DNA from: Gossypium raimondii | Lineage: Eukaryota; Streptophyta; Magnoliopsida; Malvales; Malvaceae | NCBI RefSeq assembly: GCF_025698545.1 | Contig: NC_068566.1 | Location: 43,813,192-43,877,191, forward strand | Direction of reading: 5' to 3' | DNA: 64,000 nucleotides | In this document: positions 8,658 to 62,113 of the stretch, one piece after another | How positions within the stretch are numbered: the stretch's first letter is position 1 | How the letters are laid out: each line of letters opens with the position of its first letter | Notes under the pieces: model-generated | What the model saw: only the letters and a program-made list of their open reading frames with translations | What the model was told of the DNA's origin: nothing | Database searches by the model: none | Made by a program: the position numbers and the translations under genes

Positions 8658-10606
8658 TTATGACCTAACTTTTGCAAGTCGAGCCCTTATTTCTTCTAGT
8701 TCTTCCTCATCATCAACTCCTTCGGCTATAGCCTCTTCCTGTAAAGCATTAAAGAAAAGGGGGAAAACAAATCACTCTTTAGGCTTAATGAGAAAAGATT
8801 AGCTAGAGCTATGTTACAAAGCACTTGTGCCACACGTACCTCCTGCGCTGCAGGTTGAGCTGGCTGCTTCATCTTCTCCTTCCGGACTGCCTCCGGAAGC
8901 TGTGCAGCTGTCTCACCAGCAATTGCTGTCAAGACCTTGTCAACCTCTTCTTCCGTCTCCTCCTCTATATCCTCAGAATCCAGCGCATTGTCAAGAGCAT
9001 CATTGACAAACTCCTCGATAACACCTGCCTACATATTAATAAAAAGTAACTATCCGTTGTCTCATTCCATAAAGCCAGCATATTCATCAACGTATAAAAG
9101 AGAAGATTTAAGCCATTAGAGAATCCCCTAACTTTTATGTTATAATAAGCAACGGAAACCCCATGTAACCAACAAGGCTAGAGTGGAGAACAAAAGCTCA
9201 GACTGACACAAGTTGTAGTCAAGGGCAATATAATATAAAAGGTTGGATACCATTTGCACCAAAAATATACAGAAAAAGGTAACCATTTATCGATATTTTC
9301 CTTGGTACTTAAAGATAAAAGTAGTAAAGAAACCTTGGTCATCTCTTTGCTGAACTCTTGCATTGTGACAGCCACTTCTGGAGCCTTCATAAGGTTATTG
9401 ACAAGCTTCATAACCTCAGCACTCTTGGACAAATGCCCAACTGTACGGGCAATTGCTGCAACATTTTCGAAAATACAAAAAAAAATAATGAGAACCAATC
9501 TAAGAAACAAGTAGTTCATCCAAAAATTAGAACACTACTGTCAAGATTCAAGAATATAAAAAGCAAAACAAGTGACACATGATGTTAATACCATTCTTCA
9601 CCATGTCCATGATTAAAAGTGCATATAAGCAGAACAGAAAGGTAAGCTCAAATATGTAAAACATCATACCTACACTTTCCCCAAGGTGCATTGATATTGA
9701 ATTCAATTGTGCCTTATTTTCATAGAGACGATTGACTGTTCTTCTGGATCTCACAATTTCCATGGCGAGTGACTGAAATAAACAAAAGAAATGAAAACTA
9801 TAAGACAAAAATGATTGTTGAACTTTTGAATCAACACCTAGAACTAAATCCAAGAACCAACTTTGCCACTAATGAGCATAATTGATCACAGTTTTCAAAC
9901 ATTCAAGGATGAAAACAATTATAGTTGAGTATGGATAATACTTCTGATAAATTTAGGTCAAAATATGCTCCTAGTCCATGTACTTTGATAAAGTTCGATA
10001 ATTAGTCCCTGCACTTAAAAGAGTTAGAAATTAATTCTTTTACTTTTCGATTTAAAAATACTAGTCTAATCATTAATATTGTCAGCATATTCCGTCAAAA
10101 TTTGCCAACTTGAAATGTTTAGGTTGTCCTCATATAAGGGCAGGTAAATTTTGATGGAAATTATGATTTATGCATACATGTATACACAGACATACACAAT
10201 TAATGCAGTAAAAGAATACTAGCAAAGAACTTCAATCTTGAATATTAGCAACCAAATTTAATTCGAAAACAGGATTACAATTTATCAAAAGAAAATTAGA
10301 AAAAAGAAAAACTAAATGAAGTACCTTAGCAGAAACCATGTCATTTCTCTTGGCAGCATCTTTAATAGCTTTTTGTACATTTTTCTCTTCTCTTTGAATA
10401 TCTGAACTACAATAAAAGACTTTACCTAATAGTAACCCTAACCATCAATCCAAAATCGTGAAATCCACGATCCATAAAAAAAGAAGGAACTTGCCTCTGA
10501 TTTGGCGCTCGATGTTTCGGCATTCCTGGCGAAGGCGACGCTGCCAATCTCTTAATAGCTGTTGTGGATTCGGTTTTGGCTTTATCATATTCATCACCTT
10601 CTCCAT
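8658..10606 (-). CDS. VPS24: ESCRT-III subunit VPS24 (CHMP3), 6 exons, 227 aa
   Basis: Core ESCRT-III protein that co-assembles with VPS2 on endosomal membranes to drive inward budding during multivesicular-body formation. Exons in transcript order are 10606-10495, 10401-10325, 9772-9670, 9455-9334, 9028-8840 and 8738-8658. They join in frame to 227 residues, close to the roughly 229 of Arabidopsis VPS24. The protein begins MEKVMNMIKPKPNP, has the basic helix 1 (LLRDWQRRLRQECRNIERQI), the HLSKSAEVMKLVNNLMKAPE segment, an acidic stretch (about 150-170) and a C-terminal MIM1-like helix (EEELEEIRARLAKVRS) that would bind the VPS4 MIT domain. The first intron begins with GC (GAG|GCAAGT), a typical GC-AG intron. 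The other introns are GT-AG. The gene looks intact. Confidence 0.95.
9955..10175. repeat. Decayed dispersed repeat inside VPS24 intron 2
   Basis: Lies between exons 2 and 3. It contains the phrase 'tagtccatgtactttgata ... ttagtccctgcactt', a signature shared by many short decayed repeats across the window (for example 10835-11050, 20140-20366, 24911-25108). No flanking duplication was made out. Likely an old MITE. Confidence 0.4.
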
Positions 10607-24630: not shown

Positions 24631-26208
24631 ATGGTACTATCTATGCCTTCCCTTTTATGTCTTCCCTTCATGGCTCCAATTTTCTCTTCGTTTCTTGCTT
24701 TAACTCTCATTATTCCATTAAGCAATGCTCAAGGTCCACCTTCCCCTGGATTCTCCCCAAGCTCCAGGGTGAGCACTGTGGCCTTTAATACAGGGTTTCG
24801 AAACCTCTGGGGTCCTCAGCACCAAAAACTAGACCAGGGCTCATTAACAATCTGGCTCGATAAAAGCTCAGGTTCAATTCCTGCACCACCGCATCCCTTT
24901 TTTTTGCTCTAATTATGGTTTTAGTCCCTTTACCTCTACTTTTTTTAAAATTAGTCCCGCTAAATGCTGCCGGGACTAAACTATGTTAACAGCAAAAGTT
25001 TACAATGTTATCGGTTTAGAACTACTAATAACATTATACAAAGTAGAGGAGCCAAATTATGCCAAATCAAGATAGAGAGACTAAAATTTTTCCATAATTA
25101 GGATTCTTTTCATGTGCTTAATTTTTGTATATTCATGGTGAAACACAGGGAGTGGTTTCAAGTCACTTCGTCCGTACCAGTCAGGTTACTTTGGTGCTGC
25201 AATGAAACTCCAACCTGGTTATACAGCAGGAGTGATTACATCTTTCTATGTAAGAACCTTAAAACACACACACACAAACCATTGGGGTAATGAAAAAAAA
25301 AACGTCTGATTTTTTATGTTCTGCACTTTAACAGCTTTCAAACAATGAAGAACACCCCGGAGACCATGACGAAATCGACATCGAGTTCCTTGGAACAACG
25401 CCGGATAAACCCTACACATTGCAGACCAATGTGTACATTAGAGGAAGCGGGGATGGGAACATAAATATTGGAAGGGAAATGAAGTTTCATCTATGGTTTG
25501 ACCCTACAAAAGATTACCATAACTATGCTATACTGTGGAACCCTAGTGAAATCATGCAAGTATCCTATCACCATTTCCTTCAATTTCTTTTATCATATTT
25601 TGATTTTGGTCCCTCTACTTTTATAAAATCGTTAGTTAATCCAAACAGGTGATATGGTTGACGTGGATTTTCTAATGTCAAATTAACCACAACATTTAAC
25701 CGCTAACTAACTAGCAATGTTTATAAAGTAGAGTGATTAAATTATGTCAAATTAAGGACTAAATTCTAAATTTGAGTGTATCAAAGGGACCAAAAATGTA
25801 ATTAAACTTCCCCTTTTTTCATGTTTTTATGATTTTAAATTCAACAGATTTTTCGTAGATGATGTGCCGATCAGAAGGTACCCAAGGAAGAGCGACGCCA
25901 CATTCCCAACGAGACCAATGTGGGTGTACGGATCAATATGGGATGCGTCATCTTGGGCTACCGAGAATGGTAGGTACAAGGCTGATTATAACTACCAACC
26001 CTTTGTAGGCCGGTACACGAATTTCAAAGTAAGCGCCTGCACCGCCAACAGTCCCGCCCCTTGCCGCCCGCCTTCTGCCTCTCCGTACGGGTCCAGCAGC
26101 CTTAGCCCACAGCAAGCTTTGGCCATGAATTGGGTCAAAAACAACTATTTGGTGTATGACTATTGCCATGACCCTAAGAGGGATCACACTCAGATACCCG
26201 AGTGCTAA
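24631..26208 (+). CDS. Xyloglucan endotransglucosylase/hydrolase, XTH31/XTH32 clade, 4 exons, 307 aa
   Basis: Secreted GH16 enzyme that cuts and rejoins, or hydrolyses, xyloglucan in the cell wall. Exons are 24631-24871, 25149-25249, 25335-25555 and 25848-26208, joining in frame to 307 residues. The N-terminus is a signal peptide ending near LSNAQG. Later in-frame Met codons at 24643 and 24670 are alternative starts. The catalytic motif [10 protein letters not shown] (residues 125-134) holds nucleophile Glu127 and acid/base Glu131. The C-terminal XET domain has paired Cys ([15 protein letters not shown]). The phrases [13 protein letters not shown] and [18 protein letters not shown] fit the XTH31/32 (III-A) group, whose members often act as hydrolases. 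Intron 3 begins with GC (ATCAT|GCAAGT): only that junction gives EIIFFVDDVP in frame. Introns 1 and 3 each carry a MITE-like insert. Confidence 0.95.
24911..25108. repeat. MITE-like insert in XTH intron 1
   Basis: Starts 'aattatggttttagtccct' and ends with its approximate reverse complement, 'agactaaaatttttccataatt'. Internal arms include 'cctctactttt' and 'aaagtagagg'. Fully contained in the intron and not disturbing its splice sites. Confidence 0.55.
25597..25803. repeat. MITE-like insert in XTH intron 3
   Basis: Starts 'gattttggtccctctactt' and ends '...agggaccaaaaatg', an inverted pair. The internal pair 'tctacttttataaa' and 'tttataaagtaga' is also inverted. Same general type as the insert in intron 1, from an independent insertion. 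Confidence 0.55.
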
Positions 26209-41879: not shown

Positions 41880-44815
41880 TGATCGCATCGTAAAGTTAGC
41901 TTTTGACAGGAATAAATGTAGCTGTTTGCAGAGAATCCGCTAAATATTAGTAACTTAAAATTTTTTTTAAAGTAAAGAAATTTCATCCCCAACAACATAT
42001 AGAACATTGTTAGAAGATCCCTTTAATGTCCTGGATTATTACAAACAACTGGATTTTGTCATATTTAACTACCGAATCATTGTAAAAGAGCATGAATTAA
42101 AAAGTAATGGAAAAAAGAAAATCTTACAAATGTCATGTGAGATATCATCTTTCATGTTATATCATCATGATGATGAACCAAACAATTTTTCATTGATTCA
42201 AGGGTACATTAGTATTTTAATGACAATTTTATCTTCATATATATTTTTTAATTTTTTTGAAGTAAATAGGTAAAACTATAAAAATGTTAAATTTTAATTT
42301 TTATGAACTATTATTTTTACAAGAGGGGAGTCAATATAGTTAGTGGGTTATTACTTGTTAGCCCAGTGGCTTTGGATTTTTCGTTGTCCATTGAGCTTTG
42401 AAGCATGATATGATCTCAAGAGATAGTGGGTCCAATCACTTCACTGTACAAATATGATTTGATTTTTTTTTGTTTACTTCTCAATATATGTTACCCTAAT
42501 GACCAATTTCATGGATGAAGATCAAACCCTTAATCTCATGATTAAGAGATGATTTGAACAACCCTCGTACCGTATCATATGATTTATTCCCTAATCTATA
42601 GTTTTAATCATGCTAAATGAATTTTTTTATAAAAAATTTAGATGGATTGGACTGTAACCTTACTCAAAATTACCCAAAATTTGAAAGGTATGCATAAACA
42701 AGACTTTTCATATAAATGCAAATTTGAAATGAAAAATCAGAAGCAGACAATTAGTGGGCAGTTACCAAATTTTGTGTCAAGTCAATATAAGAATGGCCCT
42801 TTCTGAACTTTAGATGCCAAAATGCTTTCATACGTCTAATCCAACACTTGATAGAATAATAACAAAACCGTGTGGGACCAAACCCTTTTAATTTCATCTT
42901 TCTCTGTTTAAAGTATGATTCTTATCATATCGTATCGATTGAGTCTTAGTTTAATTAATATGAGTATCGTTACTAATATCGTAAGATGTGTGTTTGAGTA
43001 CATTAAAGCATATCATCCTCTTATTTATGAATTAGAGAAGAATTATGCGTAATTCTTAGGTATTGTATAAAAACAGATATGATCGGAACTTATAATAAAA
43101 TCATTAGAAAATAATAATAATAATAATAATCAATAAAATCTCGTGAAAATATCTCTACCTTTCTATTTATATATAAAATAAACCCTCCTCCTCACATGCA
43201 TTTTGTAAGAGGACAAATGTACCGTCGTTTCATGGGGCCTTTAAACTCCAAGAAAAATAAAATTACTTCACGGGATCGTTGGACCGTTTCTGCTCTAAAA
43301 AAACTGAAGGTTAATTTTATCAAAACATCATTGAATTATGGCTTAATTTTAAATTGGTCTTTAAACTTTAAAATCTTTTAATTGAGCCTCAGAATATCAA
43401 TGTTGTGTCAACCAGATCATTCATTTATCTTGCTATTAGTATGTTTAAAACATCATATTAAATTATAAAAACGTGTGTACTTATTGTTCAAATAGTTTAT
43501 ACCAAACGCGCGTTTCTTTTAACACATCAATTCCAAGTTGTCTATTTAATAGATATTTACGTGTTTACAATTTGATCCACATTTTAATATGCTCCAAGTC
43601 AAATCTCAACTGACGTTTAACACTTAAATCGACAACTAAAATGATGGAAATGACATGATTTGGGGCTCAATTAGAATATTTTAAAGTTGTGTGATAATTT
43701 AAAGATGTTTTGTACAATTAACCCAAAAATTAAAAAGTTGTATATTTAACGAAATTTGGTTTTATTCCCAACAAAAATTGTGAAATATTTTAATTTTAAA
43801 ATAAGTTAGTGTTATGAATGAGATATTTTATTAATTAAATTGTGGTTACAAAATTTCTTTGGGAAAATTTTCTATCAAATTGATTTGATTTGCGAAAATT
43901 CTGTAGGTAATATGTTAAATCCTTAATGTTGCTATCAGATCTTCAAAATCAATCAGCTAATGACTAATTTTAATATATTTTTTTTATTGCCAATGTCACA
44001 TGCAATTAATATAGTTAACAAAAATATTTTAAGTTTTAAATCCTGTGAAAATTCTCTCTCTTTCTTACCTGAACCCACACACTGCTTTTTGTTAATTTAG
44101 ATTTTTAAAATTTAGTTACCGTGAATTGAGATCTCGAGTTGCAAGGTGATGGTGCACTCTTCACACGGTAAATGAAATGTATGGGTCTTCGAGTGCCAAC
44201 GTATCACCGTAAATTCAAATATACCTTAAAACTATTATAATGTCTCCCTAAAACACAAATAAATCTTTCTCCCCAAATTTTCAACACCCAACACAAAAAA
44301 AATGCGTTTGACTGGAAGTATTTTCTGTTTCTTTTTCTAAAATTAACCTATTTTCCTAAATTTAGGAAAAAACGGCCTATATCCCTAATTAATTTTTAAA
44401 ACCAATATTTTCAACTAATTCACCCCTTCCGGTGAAAAAAAACAAGTTAAAAGGTGATTAAGTAATTCACCTAGTGATTTTTAAAAGTTAGAATAGGTTG
44501 TTGTTAGTCTTATTTGAGATTTAATCTCTATATTGTACTTGCTTTTTAATTTAGAAAGCTTTTTCAATCATTAATATCGTTAATACTTTCGTTAACCTAT
44601 CATGTTTATTTTCATCAATTATAATTCATATCATATAATAATAGTTTAATCAACATATCAAGTTAACAATTTTTTATAAAAATTATTAACTATATCAATG
44701 ATTGGACTAGAATTTTTAACCAAATCTTAAATTTGTCAGAGTACAAATAGTAATAGCATATTTTACTCTCTTTTTTAAAATGAAGTAAAAACATGTAAAT
44801 GATGTAAGGTACTTA
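41880..44815. other. Intergenic DNA, no gene seen
   Basis: Apart from the SINE-like copy at 42935-43070, there is a decayed repeat at 43320-43700 and AT-rich sequence. An 88-codon frame at 42007-42273 has no recognisable similarity. Confidence 0.45.
42935..43070 (+). mobile_element. SINE-like element, sense copy
   Basis: Carries 'gattgagtcttagtttaatt' (A-box-like) and 'gtgtttgagtacat' (B-box-like, compare GGTTCGANTCC), then 'catcctcttatttatgaatt'. It matches the antisense copy at 30750-30880 along its length with many changes, so both are old. Confidence 0.5.
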
Positions 44816-44820
44816 GTGCC

Positions 44821-45448
44821 TAGATTTGATAATCGATCGGGTCATTCATCCAAGCCTAAAGGTTCGCTTGAAAAGTAAGAGGGTTTGGGTAAAAATATAG
44901 GTCCGAAAAATAGGCTTGGACAAAAAATAAGGTCCGCTTTCTACATGGGTCGGGTAAGAATTTTTGCCGAGCCCGATCCAACCCGAATTTGCCTAACTTT
45001 TTTCCACTATTGTTTCGTTGCTATTTGCTGCCATTTTGATGTTTTATTGTTATTTACTATTATATTGTTACTATTTTGCTGTTATTGTTTGGATATTGTA
45101 GAACTCTTGTATTGTTATTAATTTTGTTATTATTGGAGCCATTTGCTTGCTAAGTTACAATTATCTTGTCTTATTTAAGTATAAAGATTTTTCTTAATAT
45201 ATTTCTAATTTGTTTGGGAGACATTTATTTTAATGTTTGTAATGTATTTGATGTATTATATTTTTTAAATTTGTTTTTATATAAAAATAATATAAAAAAT
45301 TTTAATCCAGGCAAGTCGGGCTCGAGTTTAACATTTTTTTATTTGGGCCAAACTTTAATAAAATTTTAAATCGGGTTAGACTCGAACCTAAAAAATAAAC
45401 TTAAAATTTTATATTAATCCAACTCAATCCGACCCATAAAGAATTCTA
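44821..45448. mobile_element. hAT-type MITE, long degenerate relative
   Basis: Shares 'agagggtttgggtaaaaata', 'aggtccg', 'ttggacaaaaaataaggtcc' and the terminal 'ccgacccat' words with the copies at 21369 and 23161. Ends are decayed ('tagatttgataatcg' and '...gaattcta'). Flanking 8-mers ttagtgcc (44813-44820) and ttagtccc (45449-45456) match at 7 of 8. It is 628 bases, longer because of an AT-rich centre (45000-45290). Confidence 0.65.
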
Positions 45449-45456
45449 TTAGTCCC

Positions 45457-48440
45457 TCACTTAAATTCTTACTCTCTATCTTTTTTCGTGTCATCCGTCA
45501 TCTTAATAATATGGGCTTAGTAAAGCATGCTGTTAGTATGAAAAACATATGTTAATATGTTTACTTGTTTGTGGAGTCAAAAATAGCTGAAGCAAGGGGA
45601 TAAAAATATCGCTTTCTTTCATTATTTTGCGTCCCATCGTTGGTAATTGAACTGAGTTGCTAGCTTGCAAGATAGTTTAGGTAATCGTCGAGATGAGATT
45701 GGTGATACCAATGATTAGTTTAAGAATTTATTTGATAGTTAAGAGCGTACGAATCTGTCTTACTTTCTATTAGGGGTTAAATATTATTTTTGATCTGTAA
45801 GCACTTAATGATCTATCAAGGGCTTTAACGGAAGTGACAATCCGAAGAGTCCAATTGATTGTTATTTATGAATTAATTAAAGATTTAATTGATTGCATTT
45901 TTCGACTAGAGACTCGACTCATCCTCAAAATATTTTCTAGGGTTTTTTTTAAACTTTAACCTTAAAAAATAAAAATTAAATAAATGTAACACATCATAAT
46001 TTTTTTAACTCTTACTTATAAAACTACAAATTTCTTGTTTATTAAGAAAGGCAAAAAAAAGAGGAGGCAAGGGTGGGATGAGTGAATTGTGTTGGTCTGA
46101 TGCTTGAGTTTGCCGTTTCCTAAGGCAAAAGCCCACACACTCGTATCTTATATATGCAATCACTTTGATAAAGTTTAAGACATAATTATACAACAATGCC
46201 CCCATGGACTATGATGCGACATAAAGGCAAGGCATGGTGCCCATTTTATTCCCTCTCCCCCTGTTTGGGTTTTGGATTTACTGCACTCCAGTAATTATCA
46301 AAGGCTACACCCTTTGATTAAATCACTTACTACTTAGCCATTTTAAGGGTTGTTCTTATTTTAGGGTACATTGTTTATACCCTACACTTGTGCCATTTTA
46401 AGAGGGTCTTTTTTTTATATTAAGTATTTGATTAATGAATTAAAAAAAGGGGTCTTGAATTAGTCAAAGGAAAGCCCTTCAATTTCCTACAATGAGGACT
46501 TTAAAGTTTAAAAGCTTTGGCAAATTTTGGTGGGAAAGTTTGGTTACCAGCTCCCATTTTTGCACCAATGAAACAATCAGCCATTGACTCCAATATATGA
46601 ACATGATTGAGAGACAAAGGCACGCTGTCACAGAGATATTTTTGGGATGGAAACTTGTCTACTTTTTAGGGTTCCAAATTGTATTACCTTCCCAAAAACA
46701 ACAATTGCATGTTCTAACATTCTTTTTTTTTAAAAACTCTAAAATGAGTTATTTGGGTGATAGGAATTTATTTGTATAAGTAACTATCATTATTTGTTGG
46801 ATCAAGTGGTAAGAACTTCGATGTTTTTAAAATAAGATCTTCAACTCAGTTCGATGTTTTTTTTAAATAAAAAAACTTGTCACCTTTTAAAAAAGTTCAG
46901 CTCAGTTCAACTTTAAATCAAGACGTAATCTAAACTTAGAGATATCGAAAGTTCACGTATCAAAAAAAATGTCTAATTTAACTAGCTACTACTTCAATTC
47001 TCTATCTTAAATTTCTTTAAATAATGGAGTTGCATTAGGTTTATACCTAATTAGAGCTATCCCTAGGTTGAGCCACGGTCCAACATTTTTTTATTTCTTT
47101 TATGGTTTTACTTTACTATTTTTAATACATTTGAAATTTAGTGTTTATTTTATTTTAAGAAATTTAATTTTACTTTTGAATTGAAATATGTAAGTTTAAT
47201 TGTTAATATCATTAAAATTGCCTATTAAATTTAAGTTTATTTCGTCATTTTTTTACACAATTACAAAGTGAGTATTTTGTTATTTCAAAATGTCATACTG
47301 GTGAATTTAATAAAAGAATTCATACAACATTAACAATTGAACTTGAATATTGAAATTTGAAAAGTAGAGACACTAAATTTCTAAAAATAAAAATAGAAGA
47401 ATTAAATTCCAAATGTATAAAGAATACATGGACTTGGAGCTTTTTTTAACCTTTCTTTATTCAAGCTCGTTTTTAGTCCGACCCAACCCACAGATCTAAA
47501 TTCTAGGTGAGTTTCAAATACAAGTATATATATTTATATACCTAAACTTATATTATATTGGGTTAACATATATTTTGCCTTCTAAATTTGTTCATTTGTA
47601 GCTCATTGGTATCTAATTTTTTTTAGACCTAGTTGGTACTTGAACTTAATGTATTCTATCAATCAGGTTGGTATCCCCGCACTAACACCGTTAGTTTATA
47701 CTAACATTACACTACTAATCAATTCAATGGTGCCATATGGCAGCCTTTCAGTATACCACATGCCGTATATAAATTAAAAAGGTAAAAAAAACTTTAAACA
47801 TATATAAATTAATAAAAAAATATAAAATTTTTCACATAAAAATAAATCTAGATACATCCAAATACATCTATATCTGAATAATCATTTGTCCAAGTTCACT
47901 CCGGATGAGTTTTTAGTAATTTTATATTTTAAATTAGGGAACAAAATATATTTATATCTATTTTGGTCGGGATTGAATGTAAATATATTGTGATGGGTCA
48001 ATATAAAACAACAAAAGCTTTCCAATTTCCAAAGTGAAAGCTAAAGCTTGCTACCTAAAATCAGTTTACCATGACTTTGTGCTAATTTTATATGTCTCAT
48101 TAGGGGGAAATATATTGTTAAAGAAAGGGGCTATGCCTATCCAACTTTATTCAACTTTGGTTGACTTTATGTATAAAAGACTATCCTGCAAGGCCTTTCT
48201 TATGATATATCATTGTCATAAATCATTGTGGATAGAAATGTATATATGTATGAGTAGCGAAAATTAGTTTTTAGGATTGATTTTGAATTATAAAATTTTG
48301 AGAAATTTAAAATATAAGTTTTTTTTTTTTCATTTTTAGAGGGTTAAAATTTGAAATTTAAATTTTAGGGAGTAAAATTCGATTATATTATTGAAGTAAC
48401 TTAAAATTTTGTAATTTTCCACCTTTGGGGCCGGGCAAGC
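45457..48440. other. Intergenic DNA, no gene seen
   Basis: Decayed dispersed repeats near 47080-47420 and 47580-47760, with 'ttggtatctaa' and 'agttggtacttgaactt' type phrases. No exon is recognised. The short open frames lack any family resemblance. Confidence 0.4.
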
Positions 48441-48443
48441 AGA

Positions 48444-49395
48444 GGCGGTCCATCCCATGGTAAAATTATCTTTTAGCCCCAAAAGTTTATAATTTAAAAT
48501 TTAACCCCACTAGTAGCGTGATCCCTGTATGTGTGTGGGTGTTGAAATATCAAATACGTCCACAACTTCGCATTTTTGTCATGGAATAGTAACTTTTTTG
48601 TTTTGCAGCGACACAAATCAAAGTATCTGTCTGTTGAGTAATTTTTCGTTGCGTCTCATTAAAAGAGACAATCGGATATTTATAGACATGGGTATTGTTT
48701 ATGGAATTGTCGTTCTTGGTAGACTTTATGCATGCTGGACACGTATATTGTTCTGGGTTGTTTACTGGACTTCGTGGCCCTCACATGCGAACTCCTTGGG
48801 TAATGGCGAGCTAAGACCGCGAGCTCCCCTTGCAAGCACCCCTTGTTGTCTTCGTACTGTGAGGCTTGCATGTATCTATCTGGTGGGCCCTAGCTAGGTC
48901 GCAAGAAGGTGACCCGAACCTTATCTAGTTCTCGGGCTAGTGATCATAAGTACATAACATTGTCCCATGGCTTTCAAATTAATACATAGAATGAAGGGAC
49001 CAAAAAGCAAAGACAAGTAAATTAAGATTGTTGATTTTTATTTTTGAATAGGTAAGATATTCCAAGTTGAAAGTTTCATATATAAAGACATTGAAAGAGC
49101 CAAGTGAGGGCAGACAGGGCCGCCCCTAAAATAGAAAATTTTCTATTTAAGCCCTTTATAATTTATAAAATTTTAAATTAGTAATGGTAAAATTATACTT
49201 TGTCCCCCCCAAATAATAAAAATTTGATTTAATCCTTTAAAAATTATAAAAAAAATATAGTCTATTAAAATGATAAAATTATATAGTCTATTATAAAAAT
49301 ATAGACTATAAAAATATAATTTTAAAAAAATAATCATAAAAATATATAATTTAATTCTGGCTCTCACCCAAAAAAATTTTGTGATTCCACGCTAT
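48444..49395. other. Intergenic DNA with partial MITE ends and a G/C-richer block
   Basis: 48444-48520 ('cagaggcggtccatccca') and 49115-49390 ('cagggccgcccctaaaa') begin like hAT-type MITEs of the 'cAGGGGCGG' kind, but no matching second ends or target duplications are clear. 48690-48900 is less AT-rich and contains a 122-codon frame (48529-48897) with no recognisable similarity. It may be a transposon remnant. Confidence 0.35.
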
Positions 49396-49506
49396 ATAAA
49401 GGTTGGTAAAAGATATGGAAAGGAGGACATTAGTCAGTAAAAAGAACAAAAGAGAAGCCCACTGGCTTTCTTTTCCACTCATATCTCATTTTTCAATCTT
49501 AATGGA

Positions 49507-49560
49507 TGGTTGCATGCATGGTTCATGATTTAAGATGAGAAATCCTGGTGTTGAGTGTTT
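49507..49560 (+). repeat. Unit of a tandem repeat that resumes at 52472
   Basis: 'gcatgcatggttcatgattt' followed by 'aagatgagaaatcctggtgttgagtg' matches the units at 52472-52650. The LTR unit at 49880-52372 lies between them. Confidence 0.55.
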
Positions 49561-49879
49561 ACGATGAAGGCTGTAAATGAAATACAGAGGATTGCAAGCT
49601 ATTCGAATTTGAATCGATTTAATAATTATCAATATAAATTTAAGCTATAGTTGGAGTTGCCATAATACTTTATTCAAATGGGTCATTTATAATGTTATTT
49701 AAATATCTTTTTTCTTTCTATGAAATTAGATTTTTAATCTTATTATACAGAAAGAACTTAAGTACAAACAAGTTTAATCGAGCTCAAGTTTAAATAGCTC
49801 AATTAAATCTTGAGTTAAACTCAAATACGTATTGAACTTTAAATTTCGAGTTGAGTTCGAACTTACTACTATTTGATAC

Positions 49880-51084
49880 TGTAATGGCCCAAATTTGCCC
49901 GGCCCACATATATTTCAAAAAGAGAAAAAAAATAAAAAATAAAAAATAATAGAATCCAATTAAAAGTCCATTTTAAGGTCCATTTACATCTGACCCATTA
50001 CACTAGTCCGAACATTAAACTTAGACAAGACCCAGCTATACTGGCCGAAATATTTCCAGAAACCTTTAGGGTTTCTAGATTCTTCTGACGCCACAGCAGT
50101 CAGCAACTCTAGCACATCCGCGCGCCTCCAACCGCCCCGCAATGCACTGCATCTGCGCCACACGTGCACCTCAGCGCCAGGCTGGCTCCTCATCTGGAAC
50201 AAACTCAGCAAAACAACAAAGAAATCAAATAACAGAAAGGCCAGCGATTAAGAAAAAGATTATTTTATTTTATTTTGCTGTAAATCGATAATATTTTGGC
50301 TATATAAAGCCATTTCTGAATCTGTAAAAGGGATCTTTTTTTCGGGAGATATTAAATACAAGCAAAAAATATTAAAAGGTGACTGAAGTTCTTCTTGCTC
50401 TTTTCGCATTTTTTGTTTCTACAGTTATTTTAATTCTGTATTCGAGTGAAAAAAGGAATAAAAGAAAGAGGTCGGGGAGGGAAACATACCTGGTGACCGC
50501 ATCCTTTTTCTCTCCGTTGTCATCGAAGTTGAGAGGGGATCGGAGGGCCTGGAGAGCAAACGGCGGAGCGGCGCAGAGGAGAGTGTTTTAGTTTAGGTTT
50601 TTTTTGTTTTGTTTTTTTAAAATGAAATGGCTACTAGTTTTAGGGTTATTTTTGGTCTATAGGTGTAGTAATAAACGACGTCGTTTTATGCCAATTTGAT
50701 GGTCTCAAAACGGCGCCGTTTGAAGCCAAGATCTATGCGGTGACCCGACCCGAGGGAAGGATCCGCGCATTTCCATTCAATGGTTTATTTTTGAAATTAG
50801 TCCATTCGCATTAGATTTTATTTCAAATCGGTTTTCCTCCAGTTTTTTTTTAAATCGTATCGCACATTTTATTTTATTTTCATTTGGATTCAAACCTAAA
50901 CGGTGCCGTTTTCTATGAGTGGTTTTGAATGTTCAGATTTCGCGCTTAATTGCAATTATAGCCCCTCATTTTCTAAGTCGATTACCAATTTAGTTCATCT
51001 TTATTTTTCCTTTTATTTCTATTTGTAGTGTTTTATTTTTATTTTTATTTTTATTTTTTTAATTTCAATATCATTTTTTAATCC

Positions 51085-51121
<37 letters not shown>

Positions 51122-52372
51122 TCTCCTTTATATTTTAAATTATGTACTTATTTTAATATATTTATTTATAACATATTTGAATATTTAATTTGACATGATT
51201 TTCAAACTTATTATTAATATAATTTTAAGATATAATCATTCTAAATTATTGTCAATATGTTTTAAAATTATCAAACGTTTTTTAATTCTTTCTTAACATT
51301 TTATTCATTTTCTAGTTTTTATTAAATTGTTTCTAATTTTCCCATTAAAATTTTATGTATAATTTCGTGTACACATTTTGTTAATTCCACATTTCTTTGA
51401 TCGTTTTTTAAGTTACATTTTATTTTGCTTCTTGGTTAATAGTCTTAAAATGTTGATATTGATGTATGCATAGTGCTATTAAAATTAGGGTTATTCAACT
51501 TGTTTATATTCATTTATTATTCGTTACTCGTTGATGTATATTCGAATTTTGTGTGATATGTTGCCGTTTAACTATACCGCATTTATTTTTTCACTTGTTT
51601 CATTAAAAGCATTAAAATCATTTCGTTTTGTAAATTGTCAAAATACTCGGTATTCATATTTCTCGAGAGGATTGTGCCCTAACTTACTGGGTTTCAATTC
51701 ATTTCGTTGAATTTAGATAACCAAGTACTTGTTTTGCAATTAAATCATACAAATTTTAAATAAAGCTTTGTCTTTCGGGATTTCAAAATGTTGGATCCTA
51801 ACTCACCGGATATGACATTTTGAGACCTCGAATTAGGTTTTTTTTAAATAAAAATAAAATAAATAAAAAATAAGAGCAATATTTGGTGTTTAGGAATTTC
51901 GAGGAAATAAACCCTAACTTACTGGGTTTAATTTATTGTTTGACCCAAATAACCTGATATCCTTCTAAAAAAATGCATAAATTTCAAAAGTTAAAAGATA
52001 AACTTAATTTTGAGGATTTAAAACGTTACACTCTAACTTACTGAGTGTGACAATTTATTTCTTTAAAATAAGTGAGTCACATTCTATTCAAATTCTCTTT
52101 TCAAAGGATCGTATTTTAAAAATCTTTTTAAATTCTTGACATTAAGACATTAAACAATCGATTCGGTACCATTTTTGGGCGTTACGAGGGTGCTAACCCT
52201 TCCTCGTGCGTAACCGACTCCCGAACCTTTTTTTCTCAAAATTCGCAGACCAAAAATCATTTTAATGGTGAACCGGTCACACCTTAATAAAAGATCGGCG
52301 GCGACTCCCATTTTCATTTTTTAAGTCGACAACTACATTTTTTTTATTTTTTCAAAAAAGGTGGTTTCAACA
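49880..52372 (-). mobile_element. Large LTR of the same family as 28264-29637, fossil, opposite orientation
   Basis: On the minus strand it begins TGTTGAAACC at 52372 and ends in TTACA at 49880, with the G/C-rich 'tgggccgggcaaatttgggc' terminal stretch like that of the 28-kb unit. Shared internal landmarks are the 'cgaggaagggttag' segment, 'gtcgcc' near the start and 'acggcgccgtt' palindromes (50711, 50901). It is about 1.1 kb longer than the other unit. The flanking 5-mers (gatac, ggtcc) differ, so no target duplication is visible. Internal coding sequence is absent. Old and incomplete. Confidence 0.6.
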
Positions 52373-52471
52373 GGTCCAACTTGACTGCTCGTTTACAACT
52401 CTACTTCCAATAGCATGATGTGACATTAAATTTGGGGTCTAAAATTTTTGAAGGCCAAGACTTTGATGAAC

Positions 52472-52650
52472 GCATGCATGGTTCATGGCTTAAAAACCCC
52501 TAGTGTTGAGTGTTGATGGATGCATGGCTAATGGTTCGTGGTTTAAGATAAGAATCTCTTGTGTTGAATGTTGATGGATGCATGCATGCATGTTGCATGT
52601 TGCATGTTGCATGTTGAGGGGATGCATGGCTTAAGATAAGAACCCCATGG
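52472..52650 (+). repeat. Tandem repeat, about three diverged units, with a ttgcatg heptamer run
   Basis: Units of 48-75 bases near 52472, 52518 and 52576 share 'gatgcatg', '(gg)tttaagataagaa' and 'gtgttgaatgttgatgga'. Within the last, the heptamer ttgcatg repeats about four times (52588-52617). Confidence 0.65.
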
Positions 52651-52918
52651 AGTGGACCGAGTACAAAAGACCAATGGAAGACTAAACAAAATGCAAAGCA
52701 TTGGCCATTGGAAGAAACGGATCTATTTTACAATTGCCAATTTGGTATGGTTTTGGCCTTTTCTGCTTTTCTCCATCTCCCATTTGGATTGTAGGGGCAT
52801 TTTACTAAAAAAAATGCTTTTTCTAAAAAAATTACTGAAATGGGCTCATTATTTAATTATTTACCGGAATGGTCCATTTTCTGGGGGTCGTCCGACGTCG
52901 TGTCATGAGTTGTCGACA

Positions 52919-52957
52919 TGGCAACAAATCGCGCCTCTAGGACGCGATTTGTTGCCA
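52919..52957. repeat. Perfect 15-bp stem hairpin near the left MULE end
   Basis: TGGCAACAAATCGCG at 52919-52933 is the exact reverse complement of 52943-52957, with a 9-base loop. The 'cgcgattt' word recurs in the right subterminal region. Possibly a transposase-binding or replication-stalling structure; that role is inferred. Confidence 0.85.
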
Positions 52958-53057
52958 CGCCAAGAACTCGCCTCGACGTGGTCAGAATTTGACCAGCGTG
53001 AGCAGTGCTCCAACGGTTAAAAATTTGACCGTTGCCCCCCCAACGGTAAAAAAAAAC

Positions 53058-53066
53058 TATAAATAC
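53058..53066 (+). promoter_or_regulatory. Candidate TATA box of the mobile-domain gene
   Basis: 'ctataaata' is about 160 bases upstream of the start codon at 53225 and lies within the left subterminal region of the MULE. Confidence 0.5.
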
Positions 53067-53224
53067 CCCCACCCTTTTTTTTTCACAAACTAATCCTCTC
53101 TCAAATTTCCTCTCAATTTCCTTCAAAAATTATCTTAAGTTTCTCTTAACTCCCTTTTTTAAAATAATTTTAAAAATATTTTTTAAAATTTTTTTAAACC
53201 GTAAAAATTTGTACGATTTCAGCA

Positions 53225-55338
53225 ATGGCCGGAGAATTGACTCGTCTTAATAAGCATCACATATCGGTGGAACAAATGAAAATGGTAAGTATTAAATTTA
53301 ATTTTTAAATATTATTTAAGAATTTTTTATTTATACATTTTTAGATAATTATTAATTTTTTATTTGTTATAAAAGTCTGTAGATCGAGTATTGGAATGCA
53401 ATATCCGGAATATGCATGCTCCTCCATCACCGTTGGTAGAGAACTACCTGGGAAAAGCGGGTTTTTGGCACGTGGCGACGGTAGGCCGGGGATGCAAGGT
53501 GGACCCGAAACTAATCAGTGCGTTGATCGAGAGGTGGAGACCCGAGACGCACACATTCCATCTTCCATGTGGAGAGTGCACTATCACTCTAGAAGATGTC
53601 AGTCTGCAATTGGGATTGCCGGTGGACGGGAGCCCAGTCATCGGGTCTTCCCAATCTAGCGATTGGGAGACGGTGTGCTACGAGCTTTTGGGCGCTATTC
53701 CGGAGAAAATGGAGGGAGGTAAGATTGAGATGGGCTGGTTACGTGACACATTCCCTGATCCGGATAAAGATTCAACCGAAATTGAAAGAATCTAATATGC
53801 TCGGGCATACATTCTTAAATTAATTGAAGGTTATCTGATGCCCGATACGTCACGGAGTCGCGTACATTTAAGATGGCTGCTGAAACTCGTTGATTTTAGA
53901 GCTGCCGGTGAATTGAGTTGATTTTCTGCCGTCTTGGCAACGTTATATCGGGAGATGTACGGGGAGACGCGACCGAGGAGAGCAAAAATCGGAGGTTGCT
54001 TGTCACTACTACAGTCGTGGGCACGGTTTTGCTTTCCATTTCTATGTCCTCGAGTGGACCACCCATATACATTCCCACTCATAACGAGGTAAATTTTATA
54101 TTAGATTTTACAATTATTATGTAGATTTTTAAAAATAAAAATATGCTAAAATTTTATTTAATTAGGTGGAACCATCCGGCAAGTCATGCTCGATTACCGT
54201 CCTCTCTTGAAGATATACGGCTTCTATTGGACAAACGGTCGGAAGCACAAGTAAGTTTTAAATAAAATAGATATTTCCATACATTCGCTAGTCGATTGAT
54301 ATTTAGTATTTAGTATTTAGTATTATGTATATAACTAATATTTCCATCATGTTCATATAGTTTCAATGGACACCATACGAGGATCCGGCAATTCGGGCAG
54401 TAATCCCGGAAGAGTTCTTACAAAATCCACAAGCTTGGCACGTGAAAGTCGTGTTGATCAACTACGCAACCGTGGAGCCGCACCAGACAGACAAAGTGCT
54501 ACGACAGTTTGGATGTAGACAACTGATTCCCGTAGATCCTGAGGTATTTGACGATCAACACAAAGTCGACCTTCGGTAATTGAATACGGATTAGACGAGA
54601 TACTGGTCCGAGTACATGGAAATGTAAGAAGATCGATATGAATATATACCTACTCGGGAACCAATCATCGTTTCGGAGTTAACATGCATTCCAGAATATA
54701 TGCCATGGTTTAGGATCCATGGCAAGCCGTATTTACTGACGCCAGATGAGAGGTAGCGGCAAATATGTGTCAAAAGGGAAAGGCGCGGGCCTCTAAATCC
54801 AAGACAACAAGACGACAAAGGCAGTCCCTCAACGAGGCCCAGACATTCACCCGGCTCATCATCAGCGGCCATGCAATCACCAGGCCCAACGAAAGCACCG
54901 ACACAGTCACCCGACGCAGCAGTTCAACCGATAATACCCATGCAACCGCCTTTTCAGATGATGCTAGGTGCATTTTCTAGCCCTTATATGTATCCTTTTC
55001 CGAGTCCTATGGCAGGTTGGAGCCAAATGCCTGGTTCAGCTCAATTTCCTGTTATTTCGAGTGGACCGCCGATGTATAGCCCAGCGGCGCACGAGGGATC
55101 GCAAGAGGGGCTGTCGAGGAGCTCTCCTTTTTACCAATCCCCACCAACGTATGGATTTCAAACATCGTCGCCGGTCGTGATGCAAACACCTCCACCGATC
55201 GTGATGCAAACACCTCCACATACACTATTCTTTGAAGGTGGATCATCGTCCCAAGTCCGACAACCAGATGCCGTACCGAAAGAACCAGAATCCCCACTAA
55301 AACCTAGAGAAAAGAGGAATCCAACGCGTAACCGTTGA
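53225..55338 (+). pseudogene. Plant mobile domain (PMD, MAIN-like / aminotransferase-like) gene carried by the MULE
   Basis: Four exons are visible: 53225-53284 (MAGELTRLNKHHISVEQMKM), 53376-54088, 54166-54250 and 54361-55338. The PMD fold is recognisable by [96 protein letters not shown] and a proline- and glutamine-rich tail (54871-55338). Host relatives (MAIN, MAIL1, PP7-like proteins) act with PP7L in silencing and genome stability. What transposon copies do is unknown. In-frame stops occur in exon 2 (TAA at 53793, TGA at 53919) and more than once in exon 4 (first near 54580), so the copy is broken. The gene is convergent with the transposase. Confidence 0.85.
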
Positions 55339-55482
55339 CGGCAGCTATGTGGCACTGAATCCCCGGGCATAGACATTGATTGCCGTATTTAAATTTATTT
55401 GTACAAATATTTTGAATATTTTGATATTATTTGATGTAATAAAATAGAAATTTTTGATATTATTTGAGAATTTTACTAACCA

Positions 55483-56145
55483 TTAATACCCTTAAATTAA
55501 AAACCCTAACCTAATTTAATTAAAAACCTTAAACCCTAAACTTAAAAACCCTAACCCCCTTAACTTAGAAACCCTAACCTAATTTAATTAAAAACCCTAA
55601 CCTAATTAAATTAAAAACCTAACCTAATTTAATAAAAAACTTTAAACCCTAAACTTAAAAACCCTAACCTAATTTAATTAAAAACAAGAAACCCTAAACT
55701 TAAAAATCATAACCTAATTAAATTAAAAACCCAACCTAATTTAATTAAAACCCTAAACCCTAAACTTAAAAACCCTAACCTAATTAACTTAAAACCCTAA
55801 CGTAATTAAATTAAAACCCTAACCTAATTTAATTAAAACCCTAAACCTTAAACTTAAAAACTCTAACCTAATTTAATTAAAAACCCTAAACCCTAAACTT
55901 AAAAACCCTAACCTAATTAAATTAAAAATTCTAACCTAATTAAATTAAAACCCTAAACCCTAAACTTAAAACCCTAACCCCTTAACTTAAAAACTCTAAC
56001 CTAATTAAATTAAAAACCTAACCTAATTAAATTAAAACCCTAAACCCTAAACTTAAAAACCCTAACCTCTTAACTTAAAAACCCTAACCTAATTAAATTA
56101 AAAACCCTAACCTAATTTTATTAAAACCCTAAACTAAATTAATAA
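55483..56145. repeat. Telomere-like satellite spacer (ccctaaa-containing) inside the MULE
   Basis: About 660 bases made of 'aaaccctaaacttaaaaaccc' and 'taacctaatttaattaaa' modules in repeated order, roughly 40-60 bases per unit. The plant telomere heptamer CCCTAAA appears many times but never as a pure array. It separates the 3' ends of the two convergent MULE genes. Confidence 0.85.
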
Positions 56146-56160
56146 TTTTACTTTTACATA

Positions 56161-56390
56161 ATGTTAGATTTGGAAAAATGTTTTTCCTGGTACTAACAAT
56201 TAATAATTTTATATAATTTGATATTTTTACTAATCATTAATACAATTTATCAATTAATAATTTTACATTCACATAATGTTAGATTTGGAAAAATGTTTTG
56301 ACTGGTACTAACAATTAACAATTTTATATAATTTGATAATTTTTACTAACCATTAATACAATTTATCAATTAATAATTTCACAAACTTAA
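56161..56390. repeat. Two-copy tandem repeat, about 115 bp
   Basis: 'atgttagatttggaaaaatg' starts at 56161 and again at 56276, followed in both by 'ggtactaacaatta', 'ttatataatttgata' and 'ccattaatacaatttatcaa'. It adjoins the 3' end of the transposase remnant. Confidence 0.85.
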
Positions 56391-56399
56391 TTTTTTTAT

Positions 56400-59288
56400 A
56401 ATTACATTCAACTATTGCGATTAGGGCATGATCGACTTGTATGGCCTGGATTCCTACATCATCCGCACAACTTCGTTTGACTGGCTGTTTCTTGGATATC
56501 CATATTGTTACGTATTCTAGTCGAGCAAGGTCGACCCTTTGGTTTGCGACGTAATTCTCTATCCGATAACAGCTTAAAAAGAGCAAGAGATATGGGCGGC
56601 CATTTATGTTCATTTGGGATCGGTGGGAAAACGTGTCTTCAGATGTTGTACATGTTTTCTAATTTGTACACTTCGTCCACATAACTCATCGGATCCAGAA
56701 GGAGATTCTGAGAAGCTACAATAACATGCGCGCATTGATAACGAAGTGTATCAAACATCCCACAGTCACAAGTCTTATTTCGCAAGTGTACACGATATTG
56801 CCCGCCAACAACACCTTGGTGCGGTCTGTCAAACTCTGTCACGCGAAACCATAAATTGTCTCGATCGTGACACACTATGTGCATGGTGTTTGCCCTCGCC
56901 TTGGCCTTGTTAATTTCTTGAACTACCTTACTGCACCATACATGTCCTCCTTACATCTGGCCTGCATAACTTGCTGCTCGCTTTGGAAATAACGCCGCCA
57001 AACGAAAATATGTCTCTCGCACAACCGATGTTATCGGTAGATGGCGCGTTCCTTTAAGAATAGAATTGATGCATTCAGCCAGGTTCGACGTCATATGGCC
57101 ATATCGTAGGCCGCCGTCGTATGATTGTGCCCACTGTTCGAAACGTATGTTACAAAGGTAGTTCACCCCTTCTCCGTTAATTGAACGTAAAATTGCCAAC
57201 ATCTCGTGAAAACGATCTTTATTTATTTCATACACTGCCAATATAAGATCATAGCGAATAATTTATACCACTTCTACCAATAAAACTAATTCAAATTGAC
57301 AAACGAAATAACACAGATATAGACTAAATACCCATGTTGGTCACTTGTCGTCGTTTCGCTCTTAGATGGATATTGCTCGTAGTAGTTCAAGCAACGTGTC
57401 TTAGGCAATATCTATGGTGTGTGTCGCCATAAACTTCCTGTCGATCAAATGCACTAGTATACCAGGTGCCGATCCGAAATAACACGATATCGGGTTGGGG
57501 CACACATGCCTCCTTAACCTAGAGAGAAAGAAATCCCAGTCATCAGACGACTCCCCCGGTGTTATTGCAAATGCAATTGGAAGAATTCTCCCACCGCCAT
57601 CCTGTGCCACTACAAGCAATAGCCGATGAGTATACCTACAGAACATAAAGGTACCGTCAATTTGTACCAACGGCTTGCAGTATGAAAATGCGTCTCGACA
57701 TTGCTTAAAGGTCCAAAACAGACGTTTAAACACTTAGCATCCACGTAGCAATCGGTCGTTGTAGTACGCATGTTCTGTTTCAAGGTCTGTGATGGCACCT
57801 GGGACGTATATCTCTAGCACCTGACACCACTGCCATATTTCATTATATGAGGCGTCCCACCCACTATGCATCTTCTCCAACGTCTTTTGCTTAGCTATCT
57901 AAGCCTTGCGGTAAGAGGGCGTGTACCTCATTTGGCTACGGATATTGGCAATTAACACCAGCACTAAAGTCCTGGGATCTACTTTTACCGTGGGCAGTAT
58001 CAAACTAGCTAACATAGCTGAATCCATCTTGGGATGATCTTGTGAAACATCTATAAACCGAGTACATTAAATAATGCAACATTGCATAATAAAAGTATTA
58101 TTTAGAAACTGTCAATACTATACCTGCAGCACATGTATGTGGACCTTTGTACTTTTTAATCTTCCACAACCCTGTCATTTTCCTTAACGAGGCGTAGATT
58201 TTCCATGAGCATGTACCGTCTTAGACCGCACATTTCGCCTCAAACTTATCAGATTTGGATTTAACGACATGGTAGTTAACGCCGTTTTTGATGATATGTT
58301 ATTTCAAAGCACCAATAAAACTATCCTTGTTGGAAAACTGATTACCAACTTCAAATTCACCGGAATCTACCCCCCAAACTTGTACGATCACGCAATCGGT
58401 GTGGTAGATCTGGAAACTCTAACGCATCATCTGCGGACAGATCGACATTATGCATGTGGGCTGGAGGTGAGTATGCTCTGAATCGTGAATTTTCTTCTTC
58501 ATCTGAACCCCTTTCAGCATCTTCAGGTTCTGTTGGAATAGGCTCCGGTTCAGAAAATAAGCCAACTTTTGCACCATCTGGCCTGGGCTCTCGAGGTGGA
58601 TCCACATCGGAGTCATCTTCTAACCCACAATCATTTGTAGCGTACGAGGTCCCCTCACCGATTGACGTCGTAGGGAGTACGTCATCCTTTCTTCTGGGCA
58701 TTTTATAACGTCCCCAATTGGATGTAGATTGCCACCCAATAGAACTTGATGCTGTTCCCCAGTACGTATTTCCAGCATCAAACGTCGAGCCACCGACGTA
58801 CATGTCCCATCCACCGACAAAGTGTCTTGCGAGGGATGTGCATTCGACATCGCTACAGATCATGGGCTGTTCCGTATTTTGTAACCCGCTAACCGAGTGT
58901 CGGCCAGGGGTCGTGTATACATCTCGAACACCGGTCACAAGTACATCAGTTGGCGATGTAAATTGTACATATAACTCAATATAAGGTGCTCCACTAGTAA
59001 GATGAGTCTGCACCATTGCCTCCAAGCTACGAGCACCTTTTATGTCGAACGAGTCATATGTCACCGCGTCGTTCCGAAAATTTTACGCCTAATTCTTTTA
59101 CGAAGTTCTGTCAAATCTATGTTCTGGTTAAAAACCAGTCGCACCGTATTCTCCGACAAAAAAACAACACCATTCTCGGTGTGGCAAACCTCACCATCAT
59201 AGTAAATAACAGCACTAATACGTTCACTCATATTTGAAACTCTAACCTTCTTAGCCTCTCTAAATTGTTTCTGCTGTGACTTATGCAT
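56400..59288 (-). pseudogene. MuDR-type transposase of the MULE, broken
   Basis: Read on the minus strand. The N-terminus is near 59231 (MSERISAVIYYDGEVCHTEN, RLVFNQNIDLTELRKRIRR). A long acidic region follows (59064-58400, to EFPDLPHRLRDR), then the MuDR DNA-binding domain (about 58370-58130, SGEFEVGNQFSNKDSFIGAL, CSWKIYASLRKMTGLWKIKK), the MULE catalytic domain (57733-57401, PLVQIDGTFMFCRYTHRLLL with the first Asp; 57241-56951, GHMTSNLAECINSILKGTRH with the usual Glu) and a SWIM zinc finger (56884-56639, CDCGMFDTLRYQCAH). The segment between 57400 and 57241 lacks the expected second-Asp region, which points to an internal deletion. There are also a frame change near 59060 and several stops (for example in the DNA-binding domain near 58302). 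Not functional as it stands. Confidence 0.87.
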
Positions 59289-59335
59289 TCTGAGAACATT
59301 TTCTGTCTAATTTATAGCCTCAGCCCAAACATGCT

Positions 59336-59706
59336 ACTGTAGCAAAAGCGCGTCCACGAGGGCACGATTTTCACAAATTCTTCTCAAATAGCATCCTGCT
59401 ATAAGCGAATTTATACTATTTGCTCAGAAACGTCAAAAAAAAATTATTTCTTCCATGACCGACTGTAGCAAAAGCGCGTCCACGAGGGCGCAATTTACAA
59501 ATTCTTCTCAAATAGTATCCTGCTAGAAGCAATTTTATACTATTTGCTCAGAAACGTCAAAAAAAATTATTTCTTCCATGACCTACTGTAGCAAAAGCAC
59601 GTCCACAAGGGCGCGATTTCACAAATTCTTCTCAAATAGCATCCTGCTAGAAGTGATTTTATACTATTTGATCAGAAACGTCAACTCGAAATTATTTCTT
59701 CCAAGA
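59336..59706. repeat. Three direct repeats of about 124 bp near the right MULE end
   Basis: 'actgtagcaaaagcgcgtcc' starts at 59336, 59462 and, with one change, 59585. Each is followed by 'acaaattcttctcaaatag', 'atcctgct', 'tatactatttg' and 'cagaaacgtca'. Spacing is 126 and 123 bases. They lie between the transposase start and the right terminal repeat, so they may be part of its promoter or a binding region. Confidence 0.9.
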
Positions 59707-59810
59707 CCTAAAAACCCTAAAAAGCCTGAACCCTAAGCCCTAAAAGCCCAAAAAACCTAACGTGGGAAAACGGAAAAATCGCATCCCCCGGAACGCGCTA
59801 CGTGGCTCAG

Positions 59811-59858
59811 GAAATCGCTTCCACGTCAGCAACTCGCGCTGACGTGGTAGCAATTTCC
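59811..59858. repeat. Hairpin near the right MULE end
   Basis: CCACGTCAGC (59821-59830) pairs with GCTGACGTGG (59838-59847) around a 7-base loop. The stem extends outwards with ggaaatcgct and agcaatttcc (9 of 10 paired). It mirrors the hairpin near the left end. Confidence 0.8.
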
Positions 59859-60084
59859 TGGCGCGTCCCCTGACATCGCGCTGACTGGACGCGATTTGCC
59901 GAAAACTGGACCATTTCGGTAAATAATTAAATAATGGGCCCATTTCGGTAATTTTAAAAAAATGGCTTTTTTTGGTAAAATGCCCGGATTGTAGATACAA
60001 AACAAAATCATTTTATTCGATTTTTATATTTTAATTTGATATAATTTATTCGTATAATTGTCGATATTATATTTTTATCCAAAT

Positions 60085-61300: not shown

Positions 61301-62113
61301 ATGGATGCTCAGCATGGTTCCCCTTTTAGCTGGGCTTATTTTTGTCAAGCTAAGGTAATTAATGCCCCCATTTCTTGTTTGTTTTTAACTCATTAGTGTT
61401 TACCCTTTTGGCTTGATGATGAACAATTTGGGGGTTGTTTTTAATGATTGCAGACAATGGAAGAGCTTAAGCATTCACTTTTATGTACTACTATGGAGCT
61501 TGAACAAACAAAGATCCTAGTTCAAGAGGAGCTTAGAAAGAGAGATGATCAAGTACTTGAACTCAAGGAGTCGCTAAGCAAGGCTATGAAAGAGAGAGAT
61601 GAAGCCAAGGAGAAATACCAAAAGCTTTTCCTTGAGAAACTAGTGCATCATCACCACCTACACCGACAGGTTTCCAGCATTGAAGATGAACCCAGAAGAG
61701 GGATTGATTCCAACAATGGCTTCTCATCATCTGATTGTGAGGAAAGTATTGTTTCATCCCCTGTTGTTGACCCAATTCAACAAGGACCACAAGCAACCAT
61801 AGAGCTGGTGCCTGATAGGCCATTGCCTGAAAAGGGAAAGCTTTTGCAGGCAGTGATGAAAGCTGGTCCACTTTTGCAAACCCTTCTTTTAGCTGGACCG
61901 TTGCCTCAATGGAGACACCCACCACCACCACTTGATTCCTTTGACATCCCACCTGTGACCATCCCTTCACCACCACCACCACCACCACATCGGCTCCACC
62001 AAGACTCCTTCACCACCCTAAACGCCTGTGGTAAAGTTAACAGAAAAAGGATTCTATTGGAAGGCTCTGATTCTCCTACAGAGACCAAGTACCAAAGAAT
62101 AGTTCTCCATTGA
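61301..62113 (+). CDS. DUF1635 family protein, 2 exons, 237 aa
   Basis: Plant-specific protein of unknown function. Exon 1 (61301-61354) encodes MDAQHGSPFSWAYFCQAK. Exon 2 (61454-62113) continues in frame from TMEELKHSLLCTTMELEQTK to the stop. The intron of 99 bases is GT-AG. Residues about 19-75 form a strongly charged heptad-like helix (VQEELRKRDDQVLELKESLS), a likely coiled coil for dimerisation. Then come a His-rich patch (LVHHHHLHRQ), a Ser-rich acidic stretch (SSSDCEESIVSSP), the conserved block LPEKGKLLQAVMKAGPLLQT and LLLAGPLPQWRHPPPPLDSF, a polyproline run and a basic tail (GKVNRKRILLEGSDS). These are the hallmarks of DUF1635 proteins. No signal peptide or membrane segment. The gene looks intact. 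Confidence 0.92.

Follow-up and report, generated by a model that had tools for sequence, protein, structure and literature searches.

The window analysed here, a stretch of 64,000 nt of DNA, contains a complete-ended Mutator-like element (MULE) at positions 52786–59994, in which a plant mobile domain (PMD) gene on the plus strand and a MuDR/MULE/SWIM transposase gene on the minus strand lie convergently (tail to tail). Both genes are enclosed by terminal inverted repeats (TIRs) and a target-site duplication (TSD). From left to right, the features of the element and the basis on which each was called are as follows.

52786–52794, no strand: left copy of the TSD, GGATTGTAG, 9 bp (direct reading)
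52795–52881, plus strand: left TIR, 87 bp (TIR alignment)
52895–52979, no strand: subterminal palindrome on the inner side of the left TIR (matches its own inverse at 77% over 88 columns)
53058–53065, plus strand: TATAAATA, putative PMD core promoter (motif match only)
53225–55338, plus strand: PMD gene, broken (four-exon reading, PF10536)
55438–55443, plus strand: AATAAA, candidate polyadenylation signal 3′ of the PMD reading (motif match only)
55488–56143, no strand: AT-rich minisatellite in the spacer where the 3′ ends of the genes face each other (29.2 copies of a 22-bp unit at 55492–56142)
56137–56383, no strand: spacer repeat with a 115-bp unit present in 2.1 copies (repeat search)
56462–59231, minus strand: MuDR-type transposase gene, broken, with approximate outer limits (domain matches, frame reading)
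59336–59708, minus strand: tandem array of a 124-bp unit (3.0 copies), 5′ of the transposase gene (repeat and motif search)
59808–59860, no strand: subterminal palindrome on the inner side of the right TIR (matches its own inverse at 79% over 53 bases)
59901–59985, minus strand: right TIR, 85 bp (TIR alignment)
59986–59994, no strand: right copy of the TSD, 9 bp (sequence identity with the left copy)

The two copies of the TSD match perfectly, and their length of 9 bp lies within the range of 8–11 bp given for MULEs (PMC6446971). When two 9-mers were drawn at random from the window 2,000,000 times, only 52 of the pairs were identical, the 2,000,000 still including the overlapping draws that were skipped. 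The 87 and 85 bp arms of the TIR, which agree with the often long inverted repeats of MULEs, align end to end with a local score of 111 and a blastn identity of 84.9% over 86 columns, compared with a maximum of 32 for random pairs of 300-bp stretches (300 drawn and 219 scored, after removal of stretches too close to the element or to their partner). No further copy of the TIR was found elsewhere in the window, with best scores of 31 on the plus strand and 35 on the minus strand, next to a maximum of 34 among 20 shuffled ends that were scored on the plus strand only. The preliminary description had given inverted ends of about 85 bp, a perfect 9-bp duplication and a tail-to-tail pair consisting of a PMD gene on the plus strand and a MuDR/MULE/SWIM transposase on the minus strand, and all of this was confirmed by the alignments and by the domain matches described below.

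The PMD gene was read in four exons (53225–53284, 53376–54088, 54166–54250 and 54361–55338) separated by GT–AG introns, with splice sites chosen as the combination that gives the fewest stops; for the first intron, 53289–53382 is an equally good alternative. This reading comprises 612 codons and seven stops, six of them internal (53793, 53919, 54577, 54592, 54625 and 54754), while the seventh, which may not be the original stop, closes the reading at 55336. With X placed at the stops, the four-exon reading gave one match to PF10536, covering profile positions 11–346 of 347 with an E-value of 7e-67, which identifies it as a plant mobile domain protein. Taken singly, three of the five plus-strand pieces matched the same family (E 3.5e-28, 3.9e-05 and 7e-10, the second of which is below the curated cutoff), and the two pieces without a match are a mostly intronic one, which also takes in the small third exon, and one that covers the C-terminal end past the domain. 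The two long exons contain 2 and 4 stops in the coding frame, whereas the counts for the remaining frames are 12 and 12, and 15 and 11, and this scarcity of stops points to a real gene that decayed in place. The tail of the reading is rich in proline and finishes with a basic stretch, and 344 bp separate the start codon from the left TIR. A structure of the exon-2 reading predicted without alignment had a mean pLDDT of 37.9 and the model was discarded, and a search of PDB sequences with the exon-2 piece returned a single, non-significant match (E 0.24).

The transposase gene, with its start codon counted at 59231, shows the canonical domain order, and all three domains are above their curated cutoffs: the DNA-binding DBD_Tnp_Mut domain (PF03108) within 58418–58124 (E 3.3e-09), the catalytic MULE domain (PF10551) within 57733–57404 (E 3.8e-07, and 1.3e-06 for a longer piece) and the SWIM zinc finger (PF04434) within 56950–56642 (E 1.6e-06, and 6.2e-06 in a second scan). 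No Pfam family above cutoff was found for the N-terminal pieces or for the piece at 56954–57262. As judged from the family matches, the broken gene is predicted to derive from a MULE transposase with both DNA-binding and zinc-finger domains. Two GT–AG introns keep the frame (58051–58123, 73 bp, and 57235–57331, 97 bp), and seven in-frame stops were counted at 58301, 58223, 57901, 57736, 57389, 56953 and 56641, leaving out a stop at 58100 which is located inside the first intron. The last of the seven is probably internal, since the frame stays open beyond it. Apart from the two introns there are three changes of frame, near 59082–59064, 58418–58360 and 57518–57404, some of which could be unrecognised introns. 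An autonomous element would have an intact transposase frame, whereas this one is interrupted by the seven stops and the three unexplained frame changes. The PMD and transposase genes are both broken in this copy, and neither gives a full protein; the anatomy proposed earlier is supported, as is the view that a two-gene MULE has decayed here.

The subterminal regions and the spacer between the genes are rich in repeats. The DNA fold of 52893–52985, around the left palindrome, had a z-score of −4.93, and that of 59775–59900, around the right palindrome, had a z-score of −4.87, with 0/200 shuffles as stable in either case. A comparison stretch (53000–53092) also folded well (z −3.20, 1/200 shuffles), and as it too beats most shuffles, the contrast shown by the palindromes is one of degree. 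The word CGCGATTT is present twice in the left palindrome, the copy at 52943 being inverted relative to that at 52926, and on both strands of the whole window it occurs only there and at 59612 and 59890, all near the ends of the element; the palindromes and these words are candidate features for transposase binding or end recognition. Each copy of the 124-bp repeat upstream of the transposase gene contains a TATAAA on the minus strand, with a fourth TATAAA at 59316, closer to the gene, and the triplicated repeat may possibly constitute a promoter array. Between 55340 and 56440 there are 13 telomere-type CCCTAAA words.

The GC content of 32.8% and the appearance of the proteins hint at a eudicot host, perhaps a member of the cotton family. 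The ratio of observed to expected CpG is 1.11 in the element versus 0.61 in positions 1–52785 of the window. The corresponding ratios are 0.83 in the left flank (45000–52785), 0.32 in the right flank and 0.44 in the spacer between the genes. The genes of the element lack the CpG loss that is often shown by old methylated copies, and the ratio of 1.11 does not fit long decay under methylation.

We consider it very probable that the locus is a dead copy of a plant-type two-gene Mutator-like DNA transposon, in which a mudrA-like transposase gene and an accessory PMD gene converge, each being read from its own end. This classification is based on the perfect TSD and the TIRs far above chance, the nearly full PMD domain, the canonical order of the transposase domains, the two frame-consistent GT–AG introns, and the TATA-type words upstream of each gene at its own end. 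Its placement in a known kind of MULE, with two genes and a convergent PMD, is firm, making it an ordinary copy whose pairing and layout have already been published. In the intact ancestor, the transposase would have bound the ends and excised the element, which would then have been integrated where the target was cut with a 9-bp stagger, and the present copy would be movable, if at all, only by transposase supplied from elsewhere.

The closest published counterparts are the MUDR (50) and MUDRAVI2 (49) groups of PMC6446971, which share with the element the 9-bp TSD, a TIR range that includes its TIR length, the SWIM transposase and the PMD on the opposite strand. For MUDR, Table 1 of that paper gives a TSD of 9–10 bp (or not indicated), a TIR of 30–320 bp, SWIM and "PMD in antisense for most of them"; for MUDRAVI2, a group holding many sequences from dicotyledonous plants, it gives PMD in most members, often antisense, and a TIR of 80–290 bp. 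All the features that the table lists for these groups (antisense PMD, SWIM, 9–10 bp TSD, TIR range) are found here, and no difference was seen in these features. The table also lists PMD and/or DUF in half of the members of group 45 (VANDAL), PMD in group 46, and PMD in most members of groups 47 and 48, sometimes antisense. No PMD is given for MUDRAVI, a sub-group of group 50, so carriage of PMD is not universal. A Gossypium raimondii element is counted in group 50, with the PMD content of that one not stated in the text concerned (PMC6446971).

Other systems resemble the element in part. The genes of maize MuDR, mudrA and mudrB, are read convergently. They are also placed one per TIR, as in the element, with mudrA at TIRA and mudrB adjoining TIRB (PMC8224964), but the second gene here is PMD, which is likened to mudrB by position. 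MULEs of grasses and Amborella described in PMC5418596 likewise combine a transposase with a PMD-C within one element, although these are fusion proteins, in contrast to the separate PMD gene on the other strand found here. VANDAL21 (Hiun) is a MULE with accessory genes as well, including the anti-silencing gene VANC, whose protein goes by another name than PMD; VANDALs have TIRs that are absent or short and degenerate, with TIRs in some (PMC6446971), whereas the element described here has TIRs of 87 and 85 bp. The host proteins MAIN and MAIL1 share the PMD domain (PF10536), but are encoded by genes outside transposable elements (TEs), while the PMD gene described here is broken and lies between TIRs.

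The PMD gene would be the regular second gene of the lineage and not a capture by the present copy, with its regular carriage in the element's own family being taken from print (PMC6446971). Chance capture by this copy alone was rejected, as PMD recurs in plant MULE groups and the domain is nearly full length; its presence in most members of groups 47–50 speaks against such an event. As for function, our leading guess, made with far less certainty than the classification, is that the PMD protein would act in the nucleus on the chromatin or transcription of the element. One conceivable route, also a guess, would be for it to compete with the host MAIN/MAIL proteins, or to take their place, in complexes that contain PP7-type phosphatases.

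Several roles for the PMD gene may be considered. The MULE-borne PMD might interfere with the host MAIN/MAIL1–PP7L pathway as a decoy or dominant-negative partner and so keep the element expressed, an effect that VANC achieves for VANDAL21 in a different way; we put this reading forward tentatively. MAIN and MAIL1 are reported to interact with one another as well as with PP7L, and to be required for TE silencing (PMC7156037), with part of the silencing role going via expression of MORC1 (PMC9899485). That a PMD could modulate the silencing of its own element, as the preliminary description proposed, is plausible and already in print as speculation, to which this broken copy adds nothing: a part in anti-silencing was suggested by Ikeda et al. 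2017 (PMC5418596), and the counter-silencing idea was repeated in PMC8616336, where VANC21 is given as the silencing suppressor of VANDAL21. The protein invoked as a parallel in the preliminary description was there called "VANA-type", a wrong name for what is VANC in PMC8616336 and PMC6446971. The presence of PMD in most members of groups 47–50 (PMC6446971, Table 1) agrees with a function of this kind, but the DOWN motif CATGCAGTTT of PMC9899485, considered as a possible target in the element, speaks against it: the window contains no exact copy of this word, and with up to two mismatches it was found 72 times versus 79.7 expected, which is at chance level. It appears doubtful, though again conceivable by analogy, that PMD instead stands in for maize mudrB and aids integration or the pairing of ends; one gene per end, as in MuDR with mudrB by TIRB (PMC8224964), the proline-rich tail and basic end of the PMD reading, and the apparent requirement of mudrB for integration (PMC6446971) all favour such a helper, whereas the host PMD proteins that have been described act in gene expression and silencing (PMC5418596, PMC7156037).

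MULEs are known to capture host genes (PMC6446971, PMC5418596), and a captured host sequence carried without any role, as in Pack-MULEs, would accord with the broken state of PMD in this copy. This is unlikely, in view of the recurrence of PMD across groups 47–50, where most plant MULEs have it (PMC6446971), and of a near-full domain whose frame is kept apart from the stops, which suggests a functional gene in the ancestor. That a host PMD gene merely came to lie beside an unrelated MULE remnant, the two not forming one element, is hardly credible: a second small PMD relic outside the element (44139–44201, minus strand) could be cited for it, but the two genes lie exactly between the TIRs and the TSD copies, with only 344 bp from the left TIR to the start of the PMD reading. 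A PMD gene belonging to the transposon itself remains our preferred reading. Should the host be a eudicot and the PMD belong to PMD-C, this gene might represent a further capture of the MAIN/MAIL type by MULEs, beyond the two captures of PMD-C in grasses and Amborella inferred by Ikeda et al. (PMC5418596), and it would then be a free-standing, opposite-strand gene for a counter-silencing protein directed against the MAIN/MAIL–PP7L complex, a combination that we regard as improbable.

The broken copy matters less than its class, as a gene related to host silencing factors is present in many plant MULEs. According to PMC8616336, PMD has been described from angiosperms only, so the host should be a flowering plant. 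There is some tension in print between PMC7156037, which reports mainly genic PMD-C in eudicots, and PMC6446971, which lists PMD, often antisense, in most MULEs of the dicot-rich MUDRAVI2 group; the point worth following is the clade to which the PMDs of eudicot two-gene MULEs belong. Among the matches listed in a literature search (titles and starts of abstracts), there was no experiment on a MULE-encoded PMD.

Pieces of both genes and the TIR were compared with sequence collections. In viral contigs, 0/10 pattern hits were confirmed for a transposase piece of 110 aa and 0/9 for a PMD piece of 140 aa, and in prokaryotic genome contigs 0/47 were confirmed for the same PMD piece and 0/294 for the same transposase piece. 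A 29-base TIR pattern had 0 matches in viral contigs, one transposase piece had no match in plasmids, one PMD piece had no match in phages, and NCBIfam had no family for three pieces. The genomic collections searched were prokaryotic or viral, so this absence of relatives says little and is expected for a plant element.

Within the window, the transposase pieces had a best match of only E 0.68 outside the element. On the minus strand at 44139–44201 there is a PMD relic, in which 16/21 residues are identical to the PMD of the element (E 6e-07). A second element at this 44.1-kb relic was considered and rejected, as only 21 residues match; the inverted pairs found in 42000–47000 are at most 40 nt long and mostly AT-rich, and some of them flank the relic. 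Pieces of host genes were seen at 4082–5178 and 8729–9028 on the minus strand and at 25332–26205 and 61448–62110 on the plus strand. Pfam matches were obtained for six of the ten pieces scanned, to serine carboxypeptidase (two), Snf7 (below cutoff), xyloglucan endotransglycosylase (two) and DUF1635. The surroundings of the element are a gene-bearing region, with the DUF1635 match being full length and located approximately 1.5 kb past the right end of the element.
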